64,000 bases of DNA, taken from assembly GCF_025370875.1 (NCBI RefSeq), contig NZ_JAMXFD010000011.1:90382-154381 (forward strand). Reading direction: 5' to 3'. Origin of the DNA: Laspinema palackyanum D2c (GTDB lineage Bacteria; Cyanobacteriota; Cyanobacteriia; Cyanobacteriales; Laspinemataceae). This document shows positions 5,700 to 47,724 of this stretch, in pieces. The notes under the pieces are model-generated. The model was given only the letters and a program-made list of their open reading frames with translations. It made no database searches and was not told where the DNA came from. The position numbers and the translations under genes are program-made. Each line of letters begins with the position of its first letter. Within the stretch, counting starts at the first letter, position 1.

Positions 5700-7217
5700 A
5701 TGACATTTATCTCGATTGTCTACGCCCTCTTTCTCCTAAGCATCCTGGGTATCTACTGGACCGTTAATAAACAGCGATCTCGCCTGTGGATTCTGTTAAT
5801 CGCCAGCTTAGTCTTTTACACCTCCCTCCAGGTGGAGTACATTCCCCTGTTGCTGCTAGGGACTTGGATTAACTACCGCATCGGACGGGCGATCGCCAAA
5901 ACCTCCGAACGTCAACCCAATCCCCAAACCTGGCAACTTGTCACCGACGACTGGCAAACCCAATTTGCCGCCTGGGAACGCCGCCGCCTCATCGGATTAT
6001 GGGGCGGTATCCTCTTCAACATCCTGGTACTCGCCGGATTCAAATACATTCCCTTCATCTTCAACAGCCTAGGGACCTGGTTTGGCTTACCCGCCGCCCA
6101 AGAAACCGCCACTTGGTTTCAACAAAACATTCTCCCCCCATTAGGACTGAGTTTTTTCGTCTTTGAATGCATCGCCTACCTCATCGACGTTTATCGCGGT
6201 TCCCCCGCCTCCGCCCAATTTCTGCGCTTTGCCTCCTATAAACTCTTTTTCCCCAAACTCATCTCCGGACCCATCACCCGGTATCATCATTTCCAACGAC
6301 AACTCAAAACCCTCATTTTTCCCTCCTCTCATGACTGGGTAGAAGGACTTTGGTTGATTGCCTGTGGCGCATTCAAAAAAGGAGTCGTAGCCGATCGCCT
6401 AGGAATCTTCGTCACCCTCAGCTTTGAAAACGTCCAACGCGCAGGCAGCGGTGACCTTTGGTTAGCTACCATAGCCTATGGATTACAACTATTTCTCGAC
6501 TTTAGCGGTTATGTCGATATCGCCCGAGGCAGCGCCATCCTCCTCGGATTCAACCTCCCCAAAAACTTCAACTTCCCCTACTTCAGTACCAGCATTGCCG
6601 ACTTTTGGCGACGCTGGCATATCACCTTGGGAGATTGGTTGCGAAACTATTTATACTTTCCCCTAGGCGGGTCGCGAGTTGGATTAGCCCGCACCTGCCT
6701 CAACCTCATCATCGTCATGTTAATCGCCGGAATTTGGCATGGTGCCGCCTGGGGATTCATCCTCTGGGGTGCAGTCCACGGCATCGCCTTGGCAGTCCAT
6801 CGCCTCACCGACATCCTCTCCAAACGAGTCGAGGGGTTAAAACTCCTCTGGAAAAGCATTCCCGGCATTCTCTTCAGTTGGTTTCTCACTCAAACCTTCG
6901 TCTTTTTAGCCTGGATTCCGTTCCGCCTCCCCAACCTCAGAGAAGCCGGATGGGTGATGCAGCACTTCTGGGGACATACCGGAGACATCCAATTCACCGA
7001 GAAAGTCTATCTGGAAAGCCTTGGGTTACAGCGCATTGAAGTCACCTTATTGTTGGTGTTAATTTGGCTAATCATGACCCTAAGTTACGCCATGAATCGG
7101 GGATTGAAATTGCAGCTAAACTGGCCGATTAAAATTGCCTTAGTTCCCCTTTGTTTGTACGCCGTGTGGATTTTTGCTCCAGAAGGGGGTTTACCCTATA
7201 TCTACTTTGATTTTTAA
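5700..7217 (+). CDS. MBOAT family O-acyltransferase (AlgI-like), copy 1
   Basis: Polytopic membrane enzyme of 505 residues that probably moves acyl groups across the membrane onto a surface polymer. The ATG at 5700 (MTFISIVYALF) is taken as the start, because the frame further upstream runs through the 24-bp repeats and is not protein-like. Family hallmarks are WHITLGDWLRNYLYFPLGGS and, in the next helix, AGIWHGAAWGFILWG, which carries the likely catalytic His. Many hydrophobic helices are visible. Unlike the second MBOAT gene (49097-50569), it has no SGNH partner beside it. The acceptor is unknown. Confidence 0.88.
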   Translation: MTFISIVYALFLLSILGIYWTVNKQRSRLWILLIASLVFYTSLQVEYIPLLLLGTWINYRIGRAIAKTSERQPNPQTWQLVTDDWQTQFAAWERRRLIGLWGGILFNILVLAGFKYIPFIFNSLGTWFGLPAAQETATWFQQNILPPLGLSFFVFECIAYLIDVYRGSPASAQFLRFASYKLFFPKLISGPITRYHHFQRQLKTLIFPSSHDWVEGLWLIACGAFKKGVVADRLGIFVTLSFENVQRAGSGDLWLATIAYGLQLFLDFSGYVDIARGSAILLGFNLPKNFNFPYFSTSIADFWRRWHITLGDWLRNYLYFPLGGSRVGLARTCLNLIIVMLIAGIWHGAAWGFILWGAVHGIALAVHRLTDILSKRVEGLKLLWKSIPGILFSWFLTQTFVFLAWIPFRLPNLREAGWVMQHFWGHTGDIQFTEKVYLESLGLQRIEVTLLLVLIWLIMTLSYAMNRGLKLQLNWPIKIALVPLCLYAVWIFAPEGGLPYIYFDF

Positions 7218-7242
7218 ACCGCACCGCAAATCAGCAAGACCC

Positions 7243-7292
7243 GGCGGGGGATAAATCCCCCGCCTAACAGCTAAAGTCGTCTAAAGACGACT
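7243..7292 (+). terminator. Two hairpins after the MBOAT gene
   Basis: GGCGGGGGAT-AA-ATCCCCCGCC (7243-7264) is a near-perfect GC-rich hairpin 25 bp after the stop codon. It lacks a clean T-run. A second perfect inverted repeat, AGTCGTCT-AA-AGACGACT, follows at 7275-7292. Either could end transcription or process the mRNA. Confidence 0.45.
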
Positions 7293-7364
7293 GATCGTCT
7301 TATCCAGCAGTGTTTTTAGTCGGTTAAAACCCTTAGCGGTTGTTACCTCTGCTGCAAGATGTCA

Positions 7365-7456
7365 GTAGTAACGACTTCAGGCGTTATCTTCTCTTAGTTC
7401 GTAGTAACGACTTCAGTCGTTCTCTTCTTAAGTTCGTAGTAACGACTTCAGTCGTT
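7365..7456 (+). repeat. Three copies of the 24-bp interspersed repeat
   Basis: Copies start at about 7365 (5' end and palindrome degenerate, ...TTCAGGCGTT), 7398-7421 and 7433-7456. The last one overlaps the 3' end of the minus-strand remnant at 7448: read in reverse, its AACGACTGA supplies the final codons Asn-Asp-stop. Confidence 0.88.
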
Positions 7457-38683: not shown

Positions 38684-40435
38684 ATGGTTTGGCAACCGGG
38701 TACGAAAATTTTTGGAAACCGCTACACTATTCAAAAGAAGCTCAAACAGGGCGGTTTTGGCATCACCTACTTGGTCAAAGACAATAAGGGTCAACAGTGG
38801 GTGCTAAAAACCCTGAACGATAAGGTGATGACCGACCCGGAGTACATCCCCTATCGGGATAAGTTTATGCGGGACTTTGACCGGGAAACCGCTAAAATCG
38901 CCATCTGTCGCCATCGCCACATTGTCCAGGTGGTCAATCACTTCTCCCATGAAGGGCAGCCTTGTATGGTGATGGAATATATTCAGGGGCAGGATTTAAA
39001 AGACCTTGTGGTGCACAGGGGGGCCTTGTCCGAGGCGGTGGCGTTACGCTATATCCGGCAGGTGGGGGAAGCGTTGAGCATCTTGCATGATAAGGGTTTG
39101 CTCCATCGGGATATTAAGCCTGATAACATTATGGTCCGGTTGCCTGCGGATGAGGCGGTGCTGATTGATTTTGGCATTGCGCGGGAGTTTATCCCCGATT
39201 TGACCCAAACCCACACCTCTACCCTTACGCAGCATTATGCGCCGGTTGAGCAGTACGACGAACGGGAACACCGGGGGGAATTTACCGATGTGTATGCCTT
39301 GGCGGCAACCCTGTACTACTTGCTGACGGGCATTTTACCCCCGATTTCCTGGATGCGGGTGTTGCGCGAGAGCCTGAATATTCCCAGCCATTGGTCCCCA
39401 GAACTACAAAATGCGATTAAGCAGGGGATGGCAGTGAAGCCAGAAGACCGCCCCCAAACCGTGGCCGAGTGGTTGGCCCTATTGCCTAATAGTGGGGGGG
39501 GTTTACCATCCTTTAGTTTTGAAACCGTGCGGGTCAACCGTCAGGGGAAAATTATTGAGAAAATCCCGGGTCAGGCGCGGTTTTATCCCCAGGATTTGGG
39601 TCAGGGGGTGCGGTTGGACATGGTGCAAATCCCCGGGGGAACATTTTGGATGGGGACAGAGGAGGCGGAAATTGAGCGCCTGTGTAAACAGTATGAGTGG
39701 GAAGGGTTTAGGCGAGAAAGTCCTCAGCATTGTGTGCAGGTTTCTTCTTTTTTCATGGGCAGAACCCCCGTCACCCAAGACCAATGGCGCACGGTAGTGG
39801 CACAAGTGGGAACCCTTCTCCGAGACCTTGACCCGGACCCCTCTGCCTTCAAAGGCGGGAATCGTCCCGTTGAATGCGTATCTTGGTATGATGCGGTAGA
39901 GTGGTGCGCTCGACTAAGCAATCTGACGGGGAAGGAATATCGCCTCCCCAGCGAAGCAGAATGGGAATATGCTTGCCGTTGCGGGACGATGACTCCCTTT
40001 GCCTTTGGGGAAGCAATTACCACTGACCTGGCTAATTATGATGGCAACTACACCGTTGCTGAGGAAGCTGAGGGGGAGTATCGAGCAGAAACCACCCCAG
40101 TAGCGAGCTTTCCCCCCAATGGCTTTGGGTTGTATGATTTACATGGTAATGTTTGGGAGTGGTGTTTCGACCCCTTTCATGAGAATTATCAGGGTGCGCC
40201 TAGGGATGGTAAGGTATGGGATGAGACTCTAAAAGAGAATGAGAATCGTTATCAAAATCCTTTGGCAAATCTGAAGGTTTTGTTAGAGGAAAGTGATAAA
40301 AGCTATGTGCTGCGGGGCGGTTCTTGGGGCCACCTCCCGATTATCTGCCGTTCCGCCCGCCGCCTCGCCTACGCGCGCGTCCTCCTCATCGGCCTGGGGT
40401 TTCGGGTCTGTCTCGTTGGCGCAGGACTCTTATAG
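38684..40435 (+). CDS. DGR variable protein: Ser/Thr kinase fused to FGE/C-type-lectin-fold domain
   Basis: A 583-residue protein. The Hanks-type kinase domain (about residues 1-275) looks active: glycine loop LKQGGFGITY, Lys42, catalytic HRDIKPDN (from His141) and DFG (Asp162). After a short linker, residues ~314-583 form a formylglycine-generating-enzyme/sulfatase-modifying domain (MVQIPGGTFWMGT, PVECVSWYDAVEWC, YRLPSEAEWEYACR, LHGNVWEWC, LRGGSW), the fold used by many DGR targets. The C-terminal ~40 residues are the variable repeat; residues 549-570 differ from the template. It is the presumed target of the adjacent avd/RT, giving a sensor kinase whose recognition surface can be diversified. 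Confidence 0.93.
   Translation: MVWQPGTKIFGNRYTIQKKLKQGGFGITYLVKDNKGQQWVLKTLNDKVMTDPEYIPYRDKFMRDFDRETAKIAICRHRHIVQVVNHFSHEGQPCMVMEYIQGQDLKDLVVHRGALSEAVALRYIRQVGEALSILHDKGLLHRDIKPDNIMVRLPADEAVLIDFGIAREFIPDLTQTHTSTLTQHYAPVEQYDEREHRGEFTDVYALAATLYYLLTGILPPISWMRVLRESLNIPSHWSPELQNAIKQGMAVKPEDRPQTVAEWLALLPNSGGGLPSFSFETVRVNRQGKIIEKIPGQARFYPQDLGQGVRLDMVQIPGGTFWMGTEEAEIERLCKQYEWEGFRRESPQHCVQVSSFFMGRTPVTQDQWRTVVAQVGTLLRDLDPDPSAFKGGNRPVECVSWYDAVEWCARLSNLTGKEYRLPSEAEWEYACRCGTMTPFAFGEAITTDLANYDGNYTVAEEAEGEYRAETTPVASFPPNGFGLYDLHGNVWEWCFDPFHENYQGAPRDGKVWDETLKENENRYQNPLANLKVLLEESDKSYVLRGGSWGHLPIICRSARRLAYARVLLIGLGFRVCLVGAGLL
40310..40424 (+). repeat. DGR variable repeat (VR), 115 bp
   Basis: Matches the template repeat at 41946-42063. 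It begins CTGCGGGGCGGTTCTTGGG, identical in both, and ends with a 32-bp identical GC-rich block (40393-40424) that would be the initiation-of-mutagenic-homology region. In between, 17 bases differ from the TR, every one at a TR adenine (to T 7, C 5, G 5). One AAC triplet of the TR is missing. Just past the block, VR G40425 faces TR C42064, the kind of difference that separates IMH from IMH*. Confidence 0.95.
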
Positions 40436-40489
40436 CCCTTTACCCTTTAGCCCTCTTGCCCTCTGCTCTTTTTTCCCCTTTACCCTCTT

Positions 40490-40524
40490 AAAAAGCGACC
40501 GCAGGGAGCTTTTTTTTATTTTTT
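40490..40524 (+). terminator. Hairpin and T-run between VR gene and avd
   Basis: AAAAAGC (40490-40496) pairs with GCTTTTT (40508-40514) around GACCGCAGGGA, where CC and GG can pair too. Long T-runs follow. It would end the target-gene transcript. DGRs often carry a hairpin just after the VR that assists retrohoming; this one is 65 bp past the VR and could do both. Confidence 0.65.
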
Positions 40525-40535
40525 TTTGCTGTTTG

Positions 40536-40910
40536 ATGAAAGAACTACCGATTATCCAGAAAACCTACGACTTGATTCAGTGGTATGTCCCCATTTTAAA
40601 CCGATTGCCCAAAACACATAAGTTTACATTAGGCGATAGAATCATCTCCAATCTCTATGATATCCTAGAAATGCTCATTCGGGCAAGATATGCTCACGAA
40701 AAGTTGAAAATTTTAGAGGAAATTAACACTCAACTCGATATTTTACGTTACCAAACCCGCCTTCTCCTAGATTTTCAGCTCATTTCCGTAGACCGTTACC
40801 AATACATCAGCCAACTCCTGCAAGACATCGGCAATAACCTAGGAGGCTGGATTAAACAACAAAAAAATGAAACGCCACGGCCATCTTTATCCCCAAATCA
40901 CAAACTTTGA
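40536..40910 (+). CDS. avd: DGR accessory variability determinant (Avd)
   Basis: A 124-residue, mostly helical basic protein ([20 protein letters not shown], then [14 protein letters not shown] and [11 protein letters not shown]). Segments PKTHKFTLG and the four-helix pattern match the Avd/bAvd and 23S-intervening-sequence protein family, which binds the DGR reverse transcriptase and TR RNA. The start is ATG 40536; the frame upstream runs through the VR out of frame and is not coding. It overlaps the RT gene by 44 bp, so the two are translated together. Confidence 0.9.
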
Positions 40911-41925
40911 AAATCTTCTCCTCGCTGCCCGCAAAGCCCAAAAAGGCAAGCGATATCGGGATAATGTGCTGGAATTTAACTACAACCTGGAATCAGAATT
41001 ACTGCAAATTCAACAATCTTTAATTGACAAAACTTATCAACCCGGGGAATACCGGACTTTCTACATCAAAGAACCCAAAACCCGCATGATTTCCGCCGCT
41101 CCCTACCGCGATAGAGTGGTTCACCATGCCTTATGCGCCATCATTAACCCTATCTTTGAGCGGACTTTTATCACCGATTCCTACGCCAATCGGATCGGAT
41201 ACGGAACCCATCGCGCCTTAAAAAGATTCACCCATTTTTTACGGTCCTCTCCCTACGTTCTCCAGTGCGATATTGAGAAATATTTCCCCAGCATTGACCA
41301 CGAAATCTTAAAATCCCTCATTTGCCGGAAAATCAAATGTCCCGATACTCTCTGGCTAATCAACACCATCATCGACAACAGTAACCCTCAATTCCCGGCG
41401 ATTCATCACTTCCCGGACGATGACCTGTTAACCCCCCTCGGACGTAAACGTGGCCTCCCCATTGGCAACTTAACCAGTCAATTTTTTGCCAATATTTATC
41501 TGAATAGCCTAGACCATTTTATCAAAGAAACGCTCAAAATTAAAAAATATTTACGATATGTGGATGACTTTGCTCTATTCGCCGATGATCGCGAGATTCT
41601 CGTCGATGCCAGACCCGCCCTTGAAAACCATTTAGCCCAAATCCGCTTAAAAATTCATCCGATTAAAAGCCAACTATTCAGCACTCGCCAGGGCGCAAAC
41701 TTTGTGGGATTTCGGGTGTTTCAGACTCACATTCGCGTTCGGACCGCCAATCTGCGGCGAGGAAGACGTAGGCTCAAACAATTGCAAAATGATTTGGCCC
41801 AGGGTAAAATAACTCAGGAGCAAGTGAATCAATCCTTGCAAAGCTGGCAAGCTCATCTGAATCACGGTGATACTTGGCAGCTACAACAACAGCTATTCAG
41901 TTCCCTTGCTCAGTCAAGGCATTGA
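40867..41925 (+). CDS. DGR-type reverse transcriptase
   Basis: A 352-residue RT without maturase, endonuclease or RNase H domains. It carries the polymerase motifs [49 protein letters not shown] and [15 protein letters not shown]. The catalytic YVDD is at residues 231-234. IGNLTSQ (199-205) is the DGR form of motif 4, where group II intron RTs have QGxxxSP. Such RTs copy TR RNA with Avd and misincorporate opposite adenines. It starts inside avd, and the TR follows its stop codon by 20 bp. Confidence 0.95.
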
Positions 41926-41945
41926 AGAAGGGACAGGCAACCCGA

Positions 41946-42063
41946 CTGCGGGGCGGTTCTTGGGACAACAACCCGATTAACTGCCGTTCCGCCCACCGCA
42001 ACGACAACACGCGCGACAACCTCAACAACAACCTGGGGTTTCGGGTCTGTCTCGTTGGCGCAG
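41946..42063 (+). repeat. DGR template repeat (TR), 118 bp
   Basis: Noncoding template for VR mutagenesis, located directly after the RT gene. It holds 24 adenines in its 5' 87 bases, mostly in AAC and GAC codons (in VR frame it reads DNNPINCRSAHRNDNTRDN, then LNNN). AAC codons are those whose adenine randomisation gives the widest residue choice without stops. The shared 3' block is 42032-42063. The frame 41874-42074 that passes through it is not regarded as a gene. Confidence 0.95.
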
Positions 42064-42081
42064 CACTCTTCTGAGTCAGAG

Positions 42082-42103
42082 TTGAGCAATGGGAATTGCT
42101 CAA
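42082..42103 (+). other. Hairpin just downstream of TR
   Basis: TTGAGCAAT-GGGA-ATTGCTCAA is a perfect 9-bp stem with a 4-base loop, 18 bp after the TR. It may stabilise or end the avd-RT-TR transcript. Confidence 0.7.
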
Positions 42104-42167
42104 GGGTATTTTGAAGAGTCCAGTCCTGTTCCTGCGATCCGGGTAACCGTCTCCAAAAATCAACCCC

Positions 42168-42210
42168 AGCCAGGTAGCTTAGTAAGGTTTTCCTGAACCG
42201 TTACCTGGCT
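42168..42210 (+). other. Second, two-tier hairpin downstream of TR
   Basis: AGCCAGGTA (42168-42176) pairs with TACCTGGCT (42202-42210), and inside the loop GGTT can pair with AACC. Together with the previous hairpin this gives the TR RNA a structured 3' flank. Confidence 0.55.
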
Positions 42211-42247
42211 TACTCTCCAAGATGATCAGCACCATTGTGGTCGGTAA

Positions 42248-42382
42248 AAGCTGTCAGATAAAGTCGGGAGTCTGACAGATTGCGTTTCTTTTAAAATAAT
42301 GGAAGAATACTCAATTACAGAAGCCCTCGCCTACGATCAACATTTTGAGCAAGCGGGTTTTATTCCTTTATTACGCGATTGA
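42248..42382 (+). pseudogene. vapC (PIN toxin) C-terminal remnant
   Basis: The frame after a stop at 42245 reads KLSDKVGSLTDCVSFKIMEE, then YSITEALAYDQHFEQAGF and IPLLRD before a TGA. SLTDCVSF...ITEAL..D.HFEQAGF is the conserved C-terminal third of a common VapC subfamily. Nothing of the N-terminal two thirds is present. It is a fragment, not an expressed gene. Confidence 0.75.
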
Positions 42383-43385: not shown

Positions 43386-44399
43386 TCAATTGTTGGGGGA
43401 TGAGGGTTCGGAGTTGTCCTCCACTCCTGGCGAAGAGAACCAATTGATAATACTTTGGCGGATATCTTGACCAAAAATCGTCACAATAATTGTCACAAAA
43501 ATCGCCAGAATCGCTACAAAGAGCATATAGAGATTTAGCCGAAAATTCGGATCACGAGGGGGCTGCGGTGGCAAGGGTTTGACCCCTTGGGGAACCGGCA
43601 ACAAGGCTAAAAACTCCTCAATGGTTTGAGGGCGATCGCCATAATCCAACTCCATCCCCTGACGAATTGCCCAATTCGTTTCAGCACTCACCCCGGGGAT
43701 GTCCGGCAACTTCTGATCCTTTCGCTGCAAATTCACCCGCTTTTGGGCATTAGGGGGGACATCCCCCGATAACAGATTGTAGAGAGTCGCCGCCAAACCA
43801 TAGACATCGGAATAAGGTTTCGCCTGCTCATTGGGATCATAAAGCTCGGGTGGGCTAAACCCATCGGTATTACTGGAATCAATCGAGGTTAGGGTCTCAT
43901 CAAACCCTTTCGTCACGCCAAAATCAATCAGCACTGCCTCGAATTTTCCCGCCCGAAGCATGATATTGGCGGGCTTAATATCCCGATGCACCCACCCCTC
44001 CCGATGCACCACCGTTAACGCCTCTCCCACTTGGCGGATATAGGTCAACGCCTCCTCCTCCGGCAGGGTTTTCGTCGGCAAGCTGGCTAAATCATCCCCT
44101 GCCACAAACTCCATGACAATAAACGGCTGACCCCGTTCCAGAAATGAATCGAAACACCGGACAATGTGGGGATGATGGCAACGCGCCAACCGCACCGCCT
44201 CTTTTAGCAGCTTGTTATTTAACTTGTCCCGTTTGTCTAGGGTCAGTTGCGCCAAAACGTCATCCCGCAAGGTTTTGATCACGACGCGATCGCCTCCTTT
44301 GCGCTGCGCCAGATAACTAATCCCCACCCGCCCTTGATTGAGCGATCGCAGCACCTGATAGTCTCCCCCGTGCAGAGTCTCACCCGCTTGCAAACTCAT
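43386..44399 (-). CDS. Membrane-anchored Ser/Thr protein kinase
   Basis: A 337-residue Hanks-type kinase with Lys42 in VVIKTLRDD, catalytic VHRDIKPANIML and DFGVTKGF. Its glycine loop is less canonical (LNQGRVGISY). After the kinase core come a Pro-rich linker and one hydrophobic helix (about residues 286-308, LYMLFVAILAIFVTIIV), then a short acidic tail. It resembles the kinase half of the DGR target (same spacing from start to Lys42) but has no FGE domain. It could be a paralogue or a signalling partner. Confidence 0.88.
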   Translation of the reverse strand: MSLQAGETLHGGDYQVLRSLNQGRVGISYLAQRKGGDRVVIKTLRDDVLAQLTLDKRDKLNNKLLKEAVRLARCHHPHIVRCFDSFLERGQPFIVMEFVAGDDLASLPTKTLPEEEALTYIRQVGEALTVVHREGWVHRDIKPANIMLRAGKFEAVLIDFGVTKGFDETLTSIDSSNTDGFSPPELYDPNEQAKPYSDVYGLAATLYNLLSGDVPPNAQKRVNLQRKDQKLPDIPGVSAETNWAIRQGMELDYGDRPQTIEEFLALLPVPQGVKPLPPQPPRDPNFRLNLYMLFVAILAIFVTIIVTIFGQDIRQSIINWFSSPGVEDNSEPSSPNN

Positions 44400-46037: not shown

Positions 46038-47724
46038 CCTACATTCCGCAGGTAAAATAAGACAGTTCGGAATATTCTAAAACCATGACAGACATAGCAT
46101 CTGATATCATAGTACAAGATATTGACCACTGTGGCATAGTCTCCGGCATCATTGATGAGATAGGGCTCGTCGAGCTGATTAACCGAGAACTGGAGCCTCA
46201 CCCCCTGACGCTGGTGAGTCCAGGAATCGTTGTCAAAGCAATGATTCTCAATGGTTTAGGGTTGGTGAGCGCCCCATTGTACTTATTTCCCCAATTCTTT
46301 GTCGGCAAAGCCACAGAACATCTTCTGGGAGAAGGGATAACGCCAGAGCTGCTCAATGATGACCGATTAGGTAGAGTCCTAGATGAACTCTATAAAGTAG
46401 GCATCACCCAACTATTTGTCAAAGTGGCCTTGGCTGCGGCTAAAAAGTTCCGAGTAAATACCCAGAGCAAGCACCTTGATTCAACATCGTTTCATGTTCA
46501 TGGGCAATATCTGAGGGAACCTAACCTCACAGGAGAACCCCTTCCGATTGAGATTACTTATGGATACTCAAGAGACCACCGTCCAGACTTAAAGCAATTT
46601 ATCGTCGATTTGATTTGTAGTTCAGATGGAGATATTCCGCTCTATTTAAGAGTAGCCTCGGGCAATGAATCCGACTCAGCTATTTTTGCAAAATTGATGA
46701 AAGATTTTAGAGAAAACTGGGACATGGACGGATTATTCGTAGCCGATGCCGCCCTTTATAATCAAGAAAATTTAAGACAAATTAATCATTTGAAATGGGT
46801 GTCCCGAGTTCCGGCTTCTTTAAAAGCAGCTAAAGAATTGTTGAACGAACCCGCCGAATTAGACCTGCAAAATTGTCAATTGGATGGATATCAGATAAAA
46901 AGTTGTGAAATCACTTATGAAGAAATTAAACAACGATGGGTGCTAGTCGGAAGTGAAAAAAGGAAAGAGTCTGACTTAAAACAATTAAAGAAAAAAATTA
47001 AAAATTTGGAAGGGAAAGCCCGCTCCGAACTTAAAAGCTTAAGCCAACAGAAATTCGCTTGTCAACCTGATGCAGAGCAAGCAGTTGAGCAATTCAATAA
47101 GAAGCTGCGCTATCATACAATCACCGGGGTTAAAATATTAACAGTTCCCTATTATACCCAACCCGGAAGACCACCAAAGGGAGCCAAGCCCGCTGGGTAT
47201 TCTTATCAAATCCAAGCCGATTTTGTCGAGAATGAGTCAGCCATAGAACAAGAGAAAATCCGAGCCGGAAGATTTATCCTGGCTACGAACGTCTTGGATG
47301 TTAATGAACTGAGTGATGAACAGGTATTACAAGAATACAAAAACCAACAATCGACAGAAAGAGGATTTCGGTTTTTAAAAGACCCGATGTTTTTTACCGA
47401 TAGTGTTTTTCTAAAAAATCCGGAACGAATAGAAGCCCTAGCAATGGTGATGGGATTGTGTTTGTTAGTGTATAGTTTAGGTCAAAGAGCATTAAGAGAG
47501 GCTCTGGCTAAAGCAAAAAAGTCGATTAAGAATCAAGTAGGTAAACCCACCACTACCCCAACTCTACGATGGGTTTTTCAATGTTTTCAATCCATTCATT
47601 TGCTGACGGTTGATGGAGTCAAGAAAATCACCTATTTAACGGATGAGCGGCGATGGATCCTTCAGTTCCTAGGGGCCTCCTGCCAGAAATATTATTTACT
47701 GACTTGATTCAACCTGCGGAATGT
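46038..47724 (+). mobile_element. IS1634-like insertion sequence
   Basis: About 1.69 kb with one transposase gene. The ends carry an inverted repeat: ACATTCCGCAGGT on the left (46041-46053) and ACCTGCGGAATGT on the right (47712-47724). Directly outside, GGGTTTTAC occurs on both sides in the same orientation (46029-46037 and 47725-47733), a likely target duplication, although some of these bases could belong to the element tips. The copy looks complete and recent. Confidence 0.72.
46085..47707 (+). CDS. IS1634-family transposase (DDE, IS4-like)
   Basis: A 540-residue transposase. The N-terminal DUF4277-like domain reads IVSGIIDEIGLVELINRELE. The DDE core has HLDSTSFHVHGQY (first Asp), GLFVADAALYNQENL (second Asp) and YKNQQSTERGFRFLKDPMFF (Glu, YREK-like region). 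The frame is intact, without stops. It fills almost all of the element between the terminal inverted repeats. Confidence 0.88.
   Translation: MTDIASDIIVQDIDHCGIVSGIIDEIGLVELINRELEPHPLTLVSPGIVVKAMILNGLGLVSAPLYLFPQFFVGKATEHLLGEGITPELLNDDRLGRVLDELYKVGITQLFVKVALAAAKKFRVNTQSKHLDSTSFHVHGQYLREPNLTGEPLPIEITYGYSRDHRPDLKQFIVDLICSSDGDIPLYLRVASGNESDSAIFAKLMKDFRENWDMDGLFVADAALYNQENLRQINHLKWVSRVPASLKAAKELLNEPAELDLQNCQLDGYQIKSCEITYEEIKQRWVLVGSEKRKESDLKQLKKKIKNLEGKARSELKSLSQQKFACQPDAEQAVEQFNKKLRYHTITGVKILTVPYYTQPGRPPKGAKPAGYSYQIQADFVENESAIEQEKIRAGRFILATNVLDVNELSDEQVLQEYKNQQSTERGFRFLKDPMFFTDSVFLKNPERIEALAMVMGLCLLVYSLGQRALREALAKAKKSIKNQVGKPTTTPTLRWVFQCFQSIHLLTVDGVKKITYLTDERRWILQFLGASCQKYYLLT

Follow-up and report, generated by a model that had tools for sequence, protein, structure and literature searches.

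A complete diversity-generating retroelement of the cyanobacterial kinase and C-type-lectin class in Laspinema palackyanum D2c, with a conserved structured RNA behind its template repeat

Cyanobacterial diversity-generating retroelements (DGRs) whose targets combine a Ser/Thr protein kinase (STK) with a C-type-lectin fold (CLec) have been described by Vallota-Eastman et al. (2020, PMC7517822), whose study covered 58 DGRs. An element of this known class lies in the 64,000-nucleotide (nt) stretch of the Laspinema palackyanum D2c genome analysed here (contig NZ_JAMXFD010000011.1, positions 90,382 to 154,381), which we call the window. It resembles the elements in the compared parts of that study in its reverse transcriptase (RT) clade, in its STK-CLec target, in having remote paralogues that bear a variable repeat (VR) and in its filamentous host. 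Laspinema was not noticed in the main-text parts compared, the supplementary tables being outside the comparison. To the DGRs described in those parts the window locus adds stepwise decay in sister species and strain-specific co-variation of the template repeat (TR) and VR; the comparative evidence for this element is unusually good.

A more distant relative is the DGR of Bordetella phage BPP-1/BIP-1 (AY526909; PDB 8ub7), which likewise has an RT, a TR, a VR, adenine mutagenesis and a structured RNA right after the TR. It also has an accessory variability determinant (Avd). Its order is VR, then TR and spacer, then RT, whereas the order in the window is target, avd, RT, TR and spacer.

The DGR occupies window positions 38684-42070; the genome as a whole measures 7.03 Mb. 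A sequence-only reading had proposed a complete DGR with a target gene ending in a VR, avd, an RT and a TR on one strand, and every one of these parts was recovered where it had been placed, on the + strand. The DGR is genuine and complete, and its features are as follows.

38684..40435, + strand: DGR target gene, 583 amino acids (aa); Pfam Pkinase 128.9 bits, FGE-sulfatase 177.4 bits
40310..40424, + strand: VR, the diversified stretch, 115 nt; 17/23 TR adenines changed, 0/92 other sites
40425..40431, + strand: proposed initiation-of-mutagenic-homology (IMH) edge of the VR, G at 40425 (C in the TR), then ACTCTT in common with the TR; repeat comparison
40536..40910, + strand: avd, accessory variability determinant, 124 aa; NCBIfam NF033474 (DivGenRetAVD) 141 bits, cut-off 80; Pfam bAvd 78.2 bits, cut-off 40
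40867..41925, + strand: DGR RT, 352 aa, motifs IGNLTSQ and YVDD; Pfam RVT_1 83.5 bits; PDB 8ub7; tree
41946..42070, + strand: TR (copied part 41946-42063); TR/VR alignment, genome match
42057..42222, + strand: structured spacer RNA 3′ of the TR (Rfam RT-14-like 42064-42211); RT-14 35.9 bits, 23-sequence alignment, model R1

The spacer RNA directly 3′ of the TR and a second, remote VR on contig C1 are additions to the sequence-only reading. We regard it as highly probable that the window holds a complete cellular DGR belonging to the cyanobacterial STK-CLec class and working broadly as proposed below. The parts, the signature, the RT clade, the TR-to-VR copying after the strain split and the RNA structure are demonstrated by the analysis; priming, integration, current activity and the role of the target as a ligand-sensing kinase are inferences.

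In a computed alignment of TR and VR, substitutions were found at 17 of the 23 compared TR adenines and at none of the 92 non-adenines (Fisher p=1.2e-15). This agrees with the earlier count by eye of 17 substitutions, all at TR adenines and none at C, G or T. The alignment by eye held for the substitutions but left unmentioned a 3-nt gap (118 nt in the TR, 115 nt in the VR). The gap corresponds to one missing AAC-type unit, and its exact placement is ambiguous; the loss was probably on the VR side, because the TRs of Laspinema sp. D2d and of a sister genome, G005, have full length. Outcomes at the TR adenines were near-uniform (A6, T7, G5, C5). Randomisation of the TR adenines gives 15 alterable codons and about 1.6e14 proteins, and a stop codon is never possible.

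The repeat continues for 7 nt past the copied part, reaching 42070 in the TR and 40431 in the VR; this extension opens with a single C/G difference between TR 42064 and VR 40425. An IMH/IMH* edge with a fixed TR/VR difference is thus present: the base was C in three TRs and G in six VRs. Because the difference is common to all window-type repeats compared, we take it to mark where copying reaches its 3′ limit. A different DGR, in G002, has C/A at the edge position. Genome-wide, the TR had just two partners (130 and 123 bits), which excludes a chance likeness of TR and VR; the next match scored 31.9 bits, and no third VR was seen. The FGE paralogues on contigs C8 and C16 were rejected as targets, because their protein matches stop short of the VR or within it (residues 2-549 and 274-514 of the 583-aa query).

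The signature recurs in related loci. An RT search gave 56 such loci, of which 35 were examined; the TR started 24-107 nt past the end of the RT match in 29 of these. TR/VR pairs were taken from 27 of the 35; in those left out (L113, L115, L117, L121, L123, L124, L127 and L130) the TR had another position, escaped detection or was not carried forward. Together with the window this gave 37 pairs, 29 of them without any non-adenine mismatch. Four of the 29 differed in length by whole AAC-type codons (VR relative to TR: L095 +6, L096 +3, L100 -6, window -3) and showed no other non-adenine change. Because of these four pairs, we suggest that slippage on AAC arrays may add loop-length variation to the substitutions. 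The pair alignment scores mismatches at A cheaply and can therefore favour certain gap placements in pairs of unequal length, the only pairs for which gapped alignments are shown. Differences of -21 nt in L107 and L112 are artefacts of segment cutting and were not counted as length changes; L108@8015 was also cut. L107 and L112 still count among the 29 pairs, over the part compared.

The window and the orthologous locus of D2d are 91.5% identical over 6064 bases (8.5% divergence). In D2d, the strain's own TR and VR differ at 11 of 26 adenines and at 0 of 92 non-adenines. The orthologous VRs of the two strains differ at 19 of 24 sites with an adenine in either TR and at 1 of 91 others (p=3.3e-16). 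The comparison with a related strain that the sequence-only reading had suggested as a check thus gave variation almost confined to TR adenines and, with the adenine-only signature, supports its claim that the system has acted on this target. The sole non-adenine difference falls in TR column 87, which is C in both TR and VR of the window and T in both TR and VR of D2d. Column 48, with C in the TR and VR of the window, A in the D2d TR and G in the D2d VR, also fits TR-to-VR copying, and it could be due to chance because it is located at an adenine site. As a strain-specific TR base recurs in the strain's own VR, TR-to-VR copying postdates the split of the two strains. Judged from this comparison of sequences, the DGR was probably active recently.

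Avd, an accessory protein that is common but not universal among DGRs, is present here, and the RT gene overlaps avd by 44 nt. Its product has its best PDB relative in the 8ub7 series (‘Reverse transcriptase’, E=3.1e-52), which we take to be the BPP-1 DGR RT. In a tree of 28 rows the RT grouped with BIP-1, VP58.5, ANMV-1 and bacterial DGR-type RTs, as proposed from its motifs; the split (100/100) separates a 24-row DGR side from four others, namely three group II RTs and one retron-type RT, and the program warned of long branches. The window RT lies within a cyanobacterial clade of 13 rows (99/99) composed of 12 cyanobacterial sequences and one Acidobacteria metagenome-assembled genome. Its closest named relative is that of D2d, a filamentous cyanobacterium (94%).

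The target consists of a Ser/Thr protein kinase (aa 14-258) followed by an FGE-sulfatase domain with a C-type-lectin fold (aa 312-575), and the VR sits at the 3′ end of the latter, as expected of DGR targets, which have a C-type-lectin or an Ig fold. The catalytic motifs HRDIKPDN and DFG of the kinase look intact by eye. The best of five AlphaFold2 models of the FGE part had a pLDDT of 82.0 and a pTM of 0.86 (the other four, pLDDT 66.5-72.5), and a Foldseek search with it returned PvdO, TvpA of Treponema denticola (2y3c) and FGEs. TvpA, itself a DGR variable protein, shares the FGE-type C-type-lectin fold and the variable C-terminus with the window target, which, unlike TvpA, has an N-terminal kinase. 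A combined kinase and sensor function of such targets is a published hypothesis (PMC7517822); on this hypothesis the target would be a ligand-sensing kinase.

The second partner of the TR, VR2, lies on another contig of the D2c genome (G000:C1:577279-577403), in a target paralogue (6386-7408, in a wider delimitation 6206-7408, of L042, G000:C1:570000-585000) in which the kinase is mostly deleted with a frame break and an FGE-only frame is left. In the D2d orthologue the kinase region is still part of an open frame, which is 596 codons long. Non-adenine mismatches between VR2 and the strain's own TR numbered 8 of 93 in D2c and 6 of 92 in D2d, and the two VR2 orthologues differ at 19 of 26 adenines and at 9 of 92 other sites. 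By this pattern, the VR2s were diversified once and now drift, and they hold what look like older TR states.

Of the eight genomes of the genus searched, two, D2c and D2d, have the window-type machinery complete. G005 keeps the orthologous target, TR and spacer; at that place it has no avd, and its RT is reduced to about 65 aa, avd and most of the RT being replaced, by eye, by a PIN-like toxin-antitoxin-like pair (L151 4407-8221). G005 thus serves as a natural control for the loss of Avd and of most of the RT, and its VR shows 7 of 93 non-adenine mismatches to its own TR. The G005 target has, by eye, a CAP-like domain inserted between kinase and FGE, and of a second DGR in this genome only fragments of Avd and RT are left. 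In G002 the target persists, with a VR of adenine type (differences from the window TR at 15 of 25 adenines and 5 of 93 other sites). A search of the surrounding stretch, part of which reads N, revealed no avd, RT or TR; the different DGR of this genome lies elsewhere (RT 62%). In G001, G003, G004 and G006, no TR/VR match was found at E<=1e-5.

The spacer RNA begins at the repeat edge. The window matched the Rfam family RT-14 (RF02921) over its full length (1-144), and the beginning of the match coincides with the first non-adenine difference between TR and VR. Helix P1 pairs TR bases 42065-42071 with 42113-42119. An alignment of 23 spacers (A1) contained 40 pairs, 32 of them with double changes, the structure being derived from the same alignment that was used to count its pairs. 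Its cells were paired in 96.2% of cases, compared with 30-45% after sliding and 82.1% after shuffling inside the columns, and its consensus energy lay 31 standard deviations below column shuffles (z=-31). L106, L118 and L130 had been left out of A1 because of insertions or divergence, and model R1 later matched them with 106.1, 53.6 and 126.5 bits; its score on the window, one of the 23 training rows, was 155.5 bits. Adenosine 42122 was invariant in all 23 aligned spacers, and by analogy it is a candidate priming adenosine. In five cyanobacterial loci scanned with RT-14 at a lax threshold, L109 (47.8 bits) and L096 (40.4 bits) matched at one same place, and L095, L099 and L103 gave no match.

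Comparable RNAs were found in phages. In BIP-1, the RNA right after the TR is Rfam Phage_DGR (RF03022, 104.7 bits), in contrast to the window spacer, which resembles RT-14. In the Bacillus phage BalMu-1, RT-14 scored 70.4 bits, above the gathering cut-off, at the same place (from 1334; TR 1217-1336), and VP58.5 scored 37.4 bits from 1385 (TR to 1386); ANMV-1, one of four phage loci scanned, gave no RT-14 match. The BalMu-1 element (L214 1217-1477) has an unannotated TR and RT-14 RNA just upstream of a ‘retron-type’ RT, with 10 of 11 TR/VR mismatches at adenines, and it reads as an unlabelled phage DGR. We found no paper stating that RT-14 is a DGR spacer in a search that did not include the source paper of the RT-n motifs, which is no proof of novelty. 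The BPP-1 spacer recruits the bRT-Avd complex, and an internal adenine primes cDNA at the 3′ junction of the TR, according to PMC12875486.

Over 56 sources, R1 gave 17 matches at E<=1, 14 of them of at least 37 bits. Among 59 relatives, 18 carried the spacer; these include every one of the 13 whose RT reached E<=1e-60, and the other 5 were without such an RT. In a sample of 117 genomes of the phylum, the spacer was found in 16: in 10 of 10 with a close RT (E<=1e-150), in 0 of 8 with distant RTs (35-41%), and in 6 without any RT at E<=1e-40, which may still hold a divergent RT weaker than this threshold. The published RT-14 model was rejected as a cyanobacterial detector, since it found only 1 of the 117 genomes at E<=0.001 (G182, no RT at E<=1e-40). 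Among the RT-less relatives, 10 kb around the spacer matches of G036 (43.8 bits) and G038 (36.1 bits) contained nothing that matched Avd, RT, target or TR, and these spacer matches may be false; G041 had a target match and a weak TR-like match coinciding with the target's own end.

Eleven stretches of a possible satellite type were read, and G069 and G182 are the clearest cases. Besides a complete DGR, which contains the only RT found in this genome, G069 carries an FGE target-TR-spacer unit 1.4 Mb from that RT (L247 4224-5555). This unit had no avd or RT match in 11 kb, and its VR departs from its TR at 8 of 28 adenines and, apart from these, at the C/G edge alone. The compact target-TR-spacer unit of G182 (L254 3217-5649) shows adenine-only differences up to the edge, and no RT was found in that genome; its target has, by eye, a caspase-like N-terminus. 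More non-adenine mismatches, as expected of relics, were carried by G014 (9 A, 2 C, 1 G), G153 and G132d; the latter two, with 7 and 14 non-adenine mismatches, were not used as examples. No VR match was found in the stretches read of G132c, G147 and G064. We lean, by a narrow margin, towards the view that TR and spacer form a self-contained module that Avd-RT can use in trans and that some cyanobacteria carry non-autonomous ‘satellite’ DGRs, compact target-TR-spacer units that lack avd and RT and owe their diversity to machinery from another locus. In that case the orphan family RT-14 would represent the priming RNA of DGRs in phages and cyanobacteria alike. Action in trans by incomplete DGR loci has already been described for Thiohalocapsa (PMC10907252). 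A literature search on trans or solitary TRs gave, among the matches listed, nothing beyond known DGR papers.

We propose the following mechanism. A TR-containing RNA would be reverse transcribed by an RT-Avd complex with errors at adenines, and the cDNA would take the place of the VR, in which the kinase-FGE gene ends. As many as 15 codons for the binding surface of the lectin fold could be changed in this way, without a stop codon ever being made. The structured RNA after the TR is probably the spacer RNA that primes the cDNA, and it would position the RT via P1. Because P1 pairs the last TR nucleotides, copying would start at about G42063 and base 42064 would not be transferred. By analogy with BPP-1, whose priming adenine we take to be A56, in a similar context, the invariant A42122 is probably the primer and G42063 approximately the first template base.

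The adenine-only signature might be attributed to ordinary gene conversion or duplication between similar sequences, with a bias from A-rich AAC codons. The TR is indeed A-rich in one stretch, and the entire repeat can be translated as an FGE C-terminus. The base asymmetry between 17 of 23 adenines and 0 of 92 other sites, the absence of non-adenine changes from 29 of the 37 related pairs and the near-uniform outcomes rule this out, and we give it practically no credence. That the DGR looks intact but is now silent, its signature being a relic of past retrohoming and its VR fixed in the present population, is unlikely in our judgement but must be taken seriously. Drift of the remote VR is evident in both strains, the sister genome G005 has lost Avd and most of its RT, and, according to PMC12691664, a Nostoc punctiforme culture had very low VR diversity and a Trichodesmium culture no detected adenine mutation. 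The proximal VR, however, has no non-adenine mismatch among 92 sites despite the 8.5% divergence of the locus from D2d, RT, Avd, TR and spacer are intact, and the VR carries the strain-specific TR base. Another explanation would make the conserved RNA an independent small RNA or a terminator outside the DGR template RNA. Rfam files it just as ‘RT-14 RNA’ (sRNA), single folds are mildly more stable than shuffles (z=-2.28 in the window, z=-2.22 in BIP-1), a terminator scan lists the P2 hairpin as terminator-like, although such sites were not in excess over shuffles, and 6 of the 16 spacer-positive genomes of the phylum sample had no RT at the threshold used. Yet the first helix of this RNA is built from the TR's own last bases; the RNA begins where the identity of TR and VR ends in the window, and at most 3 nt from that edge in BalMu-1 and VP58.5, whether the TR stands before or after the RT; and all 13 relatives with an RT at E<=1e-60 carry it. 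We therefore consider an independent RNA very improbable.

Several observations weigh against our interpretation of the locus as a recently active DGR with a priming spacer. The assignment of the priming nucleotide leans on the biochemistry of BPP-1, in which A56 primes. The RT-14 match of the window is below the gathering cut-off (35.9 against 48.1 bits), RT-14 matched 0 of 11 related loci at the gathering score, and at E<=5 it did not match D2d or G005, nor L158 and L154. R1 matched none of five phage loci, so the kinship of cyanobacterial and phage spacers is argued from RT-14 resemblance. BPP-1 has a stem-loop after its VR, and no such structure was found next to the IMH in the window, where the sole inverted repeat with arms of at least 7 nt in 40300-40560 starts at 40490; the DNA behind the VR folds no better than shuffles (z=0.44). 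In BPP-1, the stem-loop has a boosting effect without being strictly required, as stated in PMC12875486. The remote target is now out of step with the TR, as its 8 of 93 non-adenine mismatches indicate. Present activity is unproven, and current activity would be an extrapolation from the comparison of strains.

Between the target and avd lies a further feature, which is absent from the list of the terminator scan.

40490..40514, + strand: short inverted repeat AAAAAGC/GCTTTTT followed by a T-run, terminator-like by eye

On the other side of the DGR, a remnant at window 42255-42380 is 86.5% identical to the 3′ portion of a module behind the remote target on contig C1 that looks toxin-antitoxin-like by eye, and the DGR cassette is placed between the target and this remnant. 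A separate protein kinase gene (43386-44399, - strand), 45% identical to the kinase of the target, adjoins the DGR; its counterpart also adjoins the orthologous target in G005 and G002. A transposase with DUF4277 and DDE_Tnp_1 lies nearby (46085-47707).

The locus adds to the cellular DGRs a well-documented case in which a kinase joined to a proposed lectin-fold sensor is diversified, and its sister genomes act as natural controls in which the element is intact, the RT is lost or the cassette is lost. The conserved RNA provides, through model R1, a sensitive means to find DGR templates of this class even without an RT nearby, and it gives a precise and testable prediction of where the cDNA would start.

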